This document shows positions 12,729-61,863 of a stretch of 64,000 nucleotides of DNA, piece by piece (position 1 is the first letter of the stretch; each line of letters begins with the position of its first letter). Both the position numbers and the translations under genes were made by a program. Source of the stretch: a bacterium (GTDB lineage Bacteria; CAIWAD01); NCBI GenBank assembly GCA_030429345.1, contig JAUIFJ010000006.1:1-64000 (forward strand), given 5' to 3'. The notes under the pieces are model-generated. The model made no database searches. It was not told where the DNA came from and saw only the letters and a list, made by a program, of their open reading frames with translations.

Positions 12729-12875
12729 CGGCCGGCCTGGTTTCACGCGGTGGCAGGATCCCCCAAGGGTAGCAATTCGGAACAAGGTGTGGGAAAGCGG
12801 TCGCTGTGGGGGAAGGGGGAAATGGGAGGCGCATTGCCTGACTCACGGAAAGTCCCGACTTGGCGACGCCCCCCG

Positions 12876-13117
12876 ATTCAGTCGCCCCTGCGCAGGCAGG
12901 GGCCCATCTTGAAGCCGCTTCCAGAGGCCAGGCCCGGTGACCCTCTCAAAATCCCACCACGGCAACGCCTCCCCTCCGATTCAGTCGCCCCCGCGAAGGC
13001 GGGGGCCTATCTTGAAGCCGCTTCCAGAGGCCAGGCCCGGTGACCCTCTCAAAACTCCACCACGTCAACGCCCCCCCGAGTCAGTCGCCCCCGCGAAGGC
13101 GGGGGCCTATCTTGAGA
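12876..13117 (+). repeat. Array of palindromic repeats upstream of the GIY-YIG gene (3 cores, period ~100 bp)
   Basis: Cores start at 12876, 12979 and 13079. Each reads ATTCAGTCG (AGTCAGTCG in the third), then a GC palindrome such as CCCCCGCGAAGGCGGGGG, then CC(T/C)ATCTTGA. The first two are followed by ~60 bp of nearly identical sequence (GCCGCTTCCAGAGGCC and onward), giving direct repeats of 103 and 100 bp. These occupy most of the 12729-13267 gap, in which no gene is supported. The layout resembles REP-type extragenic palindromes. Confidence 0.85.
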
Positions 13118-13267
13118 GTCACTACAAGGATCAGGATCTGTAGGCAACACACAGGCAACAACTCTGCCATGAATCAACTCGAATCAATCACAGAGAATCA
13201 TGCATCCACGGGCATGCGGTTTGCGCTCATGCTACAGACGCCACCCCTTTTCCAGGAGAACGAAGCC

Positions 13268-13597
13268 ATGGAAGTGTTAACCACAAACCTGAAGCGGAAT
13301 CCTTGTGTATACATACTGACGAACAAGCCATGGGGAACACTCTATGCCGGGGTTACTGCATTCCCCGTGCGTAGAATCTGGGAGCACAAGTCCGGGCTTG
13401 GAAGCGACTTTGTATGGCAGCATCGGTTGGGTGTACTCGCCTGGATCGAATGGAATCAAACGATGGACGAGGCGATTCGAAGGGAGAAGCGACTCAAGAA
13501 GTGGAGGCGTAGCTGGAAGATCCGGCTGATCATGGTAGACAATCCGAAATGGGTAGACATGTATGACAGCCTGCTGAAGTCGCTGTCAGGGATCTAG
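13268..13597 (+). CDS. Small GIY-YIG nuclease domain protein (UPF0213/COG2827-like)
   Basis: 109 residues from ATG 13268, which has AGGAG 9 nt upstream; the frame is open further 5' but without a ribosome site. The single-domain GIY-YIG pattern is VYILTNKPWGTLYAGVT (VYI 14-16, YAG 26-28), PVRRIWEHKSG (Arg35/36, His40) and EAIRREKRLKKWRRSWK (Glu73 as candidate catalytic Glu), then NPKWVDMYD. This is the stand-alone family of short nucleases found in many bacteria. The gene is AT-richer than neighbours and stands between two arrays of related palindromes facing in opposite directions. Cleavage or mobilisation of those palindromes is a testable inference. Confidence 0.85.
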   Translation: MEVLTTNLKRNPCVYILTNKPWGTLYAGVTAFPVRRIWEHKSGLGSDFVWQHRLGVLAWIEWNQTMDEAIRREKRLKKWRRSWKIRLIMVDNPKWVDMYDSLLKSLSGI

Positions 13598-13624
13598 CAC
13601 TGCACGGTGAATTTCGACCGATGT

Positions 13625-13795
13625 GAAGATGGGTCCCCGCCTGCGCGGGGACGACTGAATTGGTGGGGCGTGGGTGTCCGGGCGGTGGGTCGGAGTCCCT
13701 GCCTGCGCGGGGACGACTGAATTTGGTGGGGCGTGGGTGTCCGGGCGGTGGGTCGGGGTCCCCGCCTGCGTTGGGACGACTGAATTTGGTGAGAC
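13625..13795 (-). repeat. Array of palindromic repeats downstream of the GIY-YIG gene, inverted (3 cores, period 62-63 bp)
   Basis: Three cores, each ending in ACGACTGAAT at 13651-13660, 13713-13722 and 13776-13785, carry the same motif as the upstream array in reverse orientation. The first reads AAGATGGG, then TCCCCGCCTGCGCGGGGA, then CGACTGAAT. Spacers (GGTGGGGCGTGGGTGTCC and onward) are conserved within the array but differ from those upstream. With a hairpin at 13899-13920 they fill the 13598-13945 gap. The third core has a mismatched palindrome arm (GCGTTGGG). Confidence 0.85.
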
Positions 13796-61664: not shown

Positions 61665-61773
61665 TCTCCCCCGCTGCCATCCCGTGACTCCTCACACTGT
61701 CAACCAGTGGCTTCCCCCGTTGCCAACCCGCGGCTCCCCCCGCTGCCATCCCGTGGCTTGACCACGGGATCCT
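61665..61773 (+). repeat. Degenerate direct repeats (CCCCCGCTGCCATCCCGTG)
   Basis: Units at ~61665, ~61711 and ~61735 share CCCCCG(C/T)TGCCA(T/A)CCCG(T/C)G. The last continues into GGCTTGACCACGGGATCC, whose partner GGATCCCGCGGTCAAGCC lies at 61813-61830 as an imperfect inverted repeat. Confidence 0.65.
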
Positions 61774-61838
61774 TGTCCGCGTCGCAGACCGAAGGGCCTG
61801 AGGCCACTAGACGGATCCCGCGGTCAAGCCAAAGGCCT

Positions 61839-61863
61839 GCCCCCGCGAAGGCGGGGGGATGAC
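61839..61863 (+). repeat. Solo palindrome related to the 13-kb arrays
   Basis: CCCCCGCGAAGGCGGGGG with flank GATGACA. It shares the central palindrome with the 12.9-kb cores but not their ATTCAGTCG flank. It is the only solo copy seen. Confidence 0.6.

Follow-up and report, generated by a model that had tools for sequence, protein, structure and literature searches.

A small GIY-YIG nuclease gene bracketed by inverted REP-like palindromes that are probably its own recognition sites

What connects a small nuclease gene with the two arrays of palindromes that enclose it? We examined this question at one locus in a 64,000-nucleotide stretch of bacterial DNA (hereafter, the window), together with the rest of the genome and the loci of related genes. 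We consider it probable that the locus combines a divergent Ssn-type GIY-YIG nuclease with its own recognition sites, REP-like palindromes that belong to the CGTC/dRS3 class. The pairing of gene and sites, their orientation, the conservation of hairpin and loop, the active-site residues, a second orthogonal pair and a gain/loss polymorphism can all be read, as far as sequence goes, from the genomes compared. Binding, strand-specific cleavage of single-stranded DNA and mobility are predictions.

An earlier, sequence-only reading had described three palindromic cores upstream of the gene and three downstream in the opposite orientation. We recovered all six (Table 1), with the spacings it had given (103 and 100 bp upstream, 62 and 63 bp downstream) and with the downstream set inverted relative to the upstream set. 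Read towards the gene, the upstream copies have the form 5'-ATTCAGTC-hairpin-CC(C/T)ATCTT, and the downstream copies are its reverse complement. The copies proved less uniform than had been described. The ATCTT flank is found in four of the six (the three upstream and the innermost downstream) but not in the outer two downstream, and the stem is intact in four, being weakened in the second downstream copy and broken in the third. The four intact copies fold, with DNA parameters, into an 8-bp stem and a 4-nt loop at -10.5 to -11.8 kcal/mol. The arrays do enclose the gene, as had been claimed, but the repeats also occur outside the locus, in about 40 copies genome-wide. The spacer of the 103-bp units had no second match anywhere in the organism's own genome. 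A CRISPR-like array was ruled out because the spacers are themselves repeats, and Rfam, tRNA, PADLOC and NCBIfam scans returned no match.

Table 1. Coordinates of the gene, its palindromes and related features in the window.
Feature	Position	Strand	Details
Upstream site 1, family A	12876..12910	+	hairpin 12884-12903; GTC tag outward, CCCATCTT side gene-facing; -10.6 kcal/mol
Upstream site 2, family A	12979..13013	+	hairpin 12987-13006; -11.8 kcal/mol
Upstream site 3, family A	13079..13113	+	hairpin 13087-13106; -11.8 kcal/mol
Two tandem 103-bp units bearing upstream sites 1 and 2	12869..13074	.	91% alike
Shine-Dalgarno-like AGGAGA	13254..13259	+	sequence
109-aa GIY-YIG nuclease gene, Ssn-type	13268..13597	+	PF01541; conserved Y15, Y26, G28, R36, H40, E73, N92
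Downstream site 1, family A	13626..13660	-	hairpin 13633-13652; ATCTT side gene-facing; -10.5 kcal/mol, z -4.5
Two tandem 63-bp units bearing downstream sites 2 and 3	13660..13785	.	94% alike
Downstream site 2	13695..13722	-	ATCTT side lost, stem weakened
Downstream site 3	13758..13785	-	ATCTT side lost, stem broken
Dispersed copies: family B site 61746-61772 adjoining untagged family A core ~61834-61858	61746..61858	+	

In agreement with the same reading, the enclosed gene encodes a 109-residue GIY-YIG protein (PF01541, 47.7 bits against a cut-off of 22.6) and has a ribosome site, AGGAGA, 8 nt before the ATG. The reading frame stays open upstream to a GTG at 13040, running through a palindrome; position 13268 is nevertheless the likely start, because the ribosome site precedes it. 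The gene is AT-richer than its surroundings, as had been noted (its GC is 51.8% where the window as a whole has 65.6%, which ranks it among the lowest 2% of 330-bp windows), but the AT-rich stretch starts at about 13111, ahead of the gene. In an alignment of 78 relatives, the conserved residues listed in Table 1 were invariant, except Y15, which was nearly so, and the window protein keeps all of them. An AlphaFold2 model (mean pLDDT 89.8) showed the GIY-YIG core, and structure comparison and profile search placed UPF0213 proteins, the UvrC N-domain and Slx1 as its nearest folds. Sequence, alignments and model agree on a small protein that consists of one GIY-YIG domain and retains its catalytic residues. 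The protein is divergent, with an end branch of 1.07 in a poorly resolved protein tree, and the position of the GFTKKY motif is occupied by SDFVWQH.

Within the organism's own genome, the palindromes around this gene (family A) are not chance repeats: the full pattern had 35 matches at up to three mismatches compared with none for the reversed pattern, and the bare core had 49 at up to one mismatch compared with three in the control. The GTC of the tag is invariant; the copies in the window have A before it, and some dispersed copies have C. The short contig C19 carries a second small GIY-YIG gene (101 aa), which lies between copies of a palindrome of its own, family B (TCATCCCGTGG-CTTGA-CCACGGGATCC; 70 genome matches compared with none in the control), with the tag side outward. 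Around the third GIY-YIG match, in a UvrC-like frame of 613 aa, no such sites were found. Genome-wide there are about 110 dispersed sites of the two families. Away from both gene loci opposed doublets dominate; family A sites point inward in five of seven close pairs, at 119-149 bp, and family B sites in 12 of 24, mostly at 104-120 bp. The interiors of five family A doublets had no match elsewhere in the genome and are unrelated to one another, which rules out a conserved REPIN body for this family.

Other features of the same genome concern these repeats. Sites of the two families adjoin in mosaic clusters more commonly than their numbers predict (C11:78884-79000, C41:21553-21783, C81:60-400 and window positions 61746-61858). 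A variant palindrome, TCATTCCGTGG-CTTGA-CCACGGAATCC, forms tandem arrays at C18:28376-28633, C65:45410-45933 and C88:13-116, with no GIY-YIG gene found nearby, and possibly represents a third family that lacks its gene. At seven or more places, family A palindromes are interrupted by an insertion sequence with the ends TAATGCCTCCCCAC and TGATGCATCCCCAC, always at the same point of the loop region. It breaks the assembly at the G000 contig ends C35, C51, C44 and C4 (L170, L168, L169 and L171) and at C75, C83 and C87 (L158, L157 and L156), and resembles known insertion sequences that target REPs, such as ISPpu9 (PMC8450116). The genome also encodes ComEC, which says little because ComEC is widespread.

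To place the locus among its relatives we used a profile scan with one genome per species, in which at least 536 of at least 587 candidates were confirmed and 80 named loci were listed. Among the matches listed, the relatives come from Proteobacteria, Bacteroidota, Nitrospirae, Planctomycetes, Chloroflexi, Elusimicrobia and others. Clustering of palindromes at the gene, which the sequence-only reading had proposed as a check, was borne out: among the matches listed, an inverted pair flanked the gene on its two sides within 700 bp in 42 of 74 relatives compared with 4 of 1549 control positions on the same contigs. When a tag-plus-hairpin definition was used, CGTC-type hairpins stood on both sides within 500 bp of 52 of 75 genes listed compared with 15 of 2041 control positions. 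Again among the matches listed, the odds of the association exceeded 300-fold, the nearest copies pointed inward by 46:13 upstream and 50:11 downstream, and two-sided sites were missing at about 30% of relatives. In a Neisseria relative (51% identical; L104), 12 sites surround the gene at distances of up to 500 bp. A check for carriage by phages against 50,697 phage records came back empty, and plasmid matches were mostly on large non-mobilizable replicons.

The typical site of a relative is GTCATTCCCGC-GAAA-GCGGGAATCCA, with stems that are genome-specific. The 4-nt loop is GNAN, including GAAG and GCAG, in 150 of 153 sites among the matches listed. Among DNA tetraloops, c(GNNA)g and c(GNAB)g stand out for their stability, which suggests a folded single DNA strand, the hairpin, as the working form. 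Stem class tracked the protein tree (20 changes compared with a mean of 28.4 in shuffles, 0 of 400 as low) and stem distance tracked protein distance (Mantel r 0.34, p 0.0005, n 48), in both cases partly through shared descent. Loop class gave no such signal against the tree (11 changes, 11.1 in shuffles).

Gene and sites were also compared across 116 genomes. At least five generic sites were present in 10 of 17 genomes with the gene compared with 9 of 99 without it (Fisher p 1.2e-5), the 17 leaving out three weak matches of another subgroup, which were set aside on visual inspection of their scores and sequences. The expectation that relatives lacking the gene would lack the palindrome was upheld in part. 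The window's own type is absent from three genomes of the same family and one of the same class (about one match each, equal to the control), but the same-family genomes hold other palindromes of the class, and such palindromes occur in nine genomes without an intact gene. One of these nine carries a decayed gene (L189, G092:C6:92968-93054) and in the rest the GIY-YIG genes are all of the UvrC or other types; a Y1 gene, too, is absent from two of the nine. The sites can therefore outlast the gene or persist without it, and assembly gaps around the repeats may hide some genes.

The class to which the palindromes belong has been described before. CGTC REPs form four families, CGTC-1 to CGTC-4, of which CGTC-1 is dRS3 of Neisseria; they are mostly opposed dimers, and no dedicated enzyme or transposase was reported for them in 2013 (PMC3733652). 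They are defined by an unpaired CGTC (or TGTC, CCTC) tag at one end, a stem of 8-9 bp with a loop of 4-5 nt, a short unpaired tail near CCA and, 'almost invariably', A-T pairs at stem positions 1 and 2 (PMC3733652). The repeats studied here share the tagged hairpin, the unpaired tail (CC(T/C)A in family A) and the opposed dimers, as well as the dimensions, with an 8-bp stem and 4-nt loop in family A and a 9-bp stem and 5-nt loop in family B. Family B also has A-T at the first stem positions, whereas family A is mostly tagged AGTC and its stem begins with G-C followed by C-G or T-A. In contrast to the survey, the partner here is a GIY-YIG gene. Proteins of the UPF0213/YhbQ type and UvrC share the GIY-YIG fold (1zg2, 1ywl, 1yd6), but their loci have no flanking palindromes, apart from one of the nine UvrC loci examined, at which a site of the class was seen.

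As for the enzyme, Ssn proteins, or site-specific single-strand GIY-YIG nucleases, are reportedly enzymes that cut single-stranded DNA at NTS repeats in Neisseria meningitidis and affect transformation. The same study (Nat Commun 2025) is reported to find homologs in many phyla, the cognate repeat being scattered through the genome in many copies and also lying close to the gene. The window locus presumably matches Ssn nucleases in these sequence features, and we do not take the system to be new in kind. Both combine a small single-domain GIY-YIG protein with a many-copy cognate repeat that flanks the gene. The differences lie in the divergence of the window protein, in its sites (which have AGTC as tag, G-C as the first pair of the stem and an added ATCTT), in the presence of two orthogonal enzyme/site pairs in one genome and in the nuclease activity, which is predicted here.

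Allelic states in relatives speak to how such loci change. In Azospirillum lipoferum 4B, a dimer-gene-dimer segment separates sufB from sufC, and three congeners lack it between flanks that are 95-96% identical. At one intergenic site in Sphingobium plasmids three states were seen: the gene between two hairpins (frameshifted in one copy), a single symmetric hairpin on its own, and no hairpin. The lone hairpin, GTCACCCCGGGTCAAGCCCGGGGTGAC, joins the upstream site's left arm to the downstream site's right arm, and may be either the target before insertion or the product of deletion between short direct repeats (8-9 bp). These states indicate that gene and palindromes come and go as one unit, whose breakpoints fall at or in the palindromes. 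Decayed Ssn-type genes (L245 in Sphingobium TomTYG73, and L189) occur at sites or in genomes where palindromes persist. Of the mobile or recombination element proposed from sequence alone, the gain/loss unit is supported; movement driven by the enzyme is conjecture.

The alternative that survives best is a self-spreading element made up of the gene and its inward-facing palindromes: by nicking single-stranded palindromes the GIY-YIG enzyme would copy or move them, the role proposed for RAYTs with GTAG REPs. The many dispersed sites, the narrow spacing of the inward doublets and the allelic states in Azospirillum and Sphingobium are all consistent with it, as are several REPIN-like 72-bp CGTC-class doublets in another genome (G047, L190-L195), whose body is conserved while their flanks are unrelated. 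On the other hand, the unrelated interiors of the five family A doublets are unlike a copied element, and the lone Sphingobium palindrome can arise by the deletion described above. GIY-YIG enzymes act on DNA by hydrolysis and are not known to pass through a covalent intermediate, so that joining would require host repair, and Y1 transposases, present in 16 of 18 other palindrome-bearing genomes tested, could act in trans. We therefore regard self-spreading as doubtful, though worth keeping in mind. A wider form of the idea is equally tentative: CGTC REPs in general might be non-autonomous partners of GIY-YIG genes, and the palindrome-bracketed gene an autonomous, transposase-free selfish element that relies on the nicking of single-stranded hairpins and on host repair.

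A different owner for the repeats would be the Y1 (RAYT) transposases of the genome, with the GIY-YIG gene as a bystander. There are indeed 10 Y1_Tnp matches in the genome. The five best Y1/RAYT genes (L147-L151), however, are each flanked by their own unrelated repeated palindrome, for example GCTGCAGGCGAAAGCCTGCAGC, so that the pairing of enzyme type with repeat type is specific within one genome, and neither family A nor family B sites lay within 1.5 kb of the eight Y1 loci read. The palindrome class was found at none of 28 Y1 transposase loci, which had only unrelated chance hairpins, while the association with GIY-YIG genes recurs across many phyla. The survey likewise found no tyrosine transposase gene flanked by CGTC repeats (PMC3733652). 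RAYT ownership of the two families is ruled out by these loci, and the bystander explanation as a whole is very improbable. What does hold is the parallel of layout that the sequence-only reading had drawn, with a GIY-YIG enzyme in the place of the Y1 transposase, since bracketing is far above chance in many phyla, two pairs occur here and the 28 Y1 loci have none of this class. As in RAYT/REP systems (TnpA-REP, GTAG REPs; PMC2817692, PMC8266576), a small nuclease gene is flanked by genome-dispersed palindromes and recognition of a single-strand hairpin is expected; unlike them, the enzyme is a GIY-YIG hydrolase and not a Y1 HUH tyrosine transposase, and the sites carry (A/C)GTC and no GTAG tag. 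Finally, the hairpins might be ordinary intergenic terminators or mRNA-stabilising REPs that cluster at a small AT-rich gene by accident, and stable hairpins in intergenic DNA could serve as RNA structures when transcribed, but this is hardly credible given the association with a single protein family and the rarity of such flanking at random positions (both among the matches listed, as above), the preferred orientation towards the gene, the tagged ends outside the stem, the lack of a T-run and the GNAN loops, which with GAAG and GCAG are not of the RNA GNRA type.

For the reading that we favour, a divergent Ssn-type nuclease with its own sites, the following course is envisaged. Where DNA becomes single-stranded, on the lagging strand, during repair or as incoming transforming DNA, each site would fold into its hairpin, with a stem of 8 bp and a GNAN tetraloop closing it. 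The enzyme would recognise the folded, GTC-tagged hairpin and cut that strand. The sites are scattered along the chromosome and reach their highest density, in inward orientation, around the gene, so that gene and sites would spread or be lost as a module. Predicted consequences are the shaping of DNA uptake and transformation, of recombination or of the spread of flanking DNA. Two orthogonal enzyme/site pairs stand beside five RAYT/REP sets in one genome, so that site specificity is directly testable, and site-specific single-strand cutters would be useful tools. More broadly, the present data link the CGTC class to Ssn-type GIY-YIG genes across many phyla as GTAG REPs are linked to RAYTs, and these genes would supply the missing enzyme partner of an old class of repeats.
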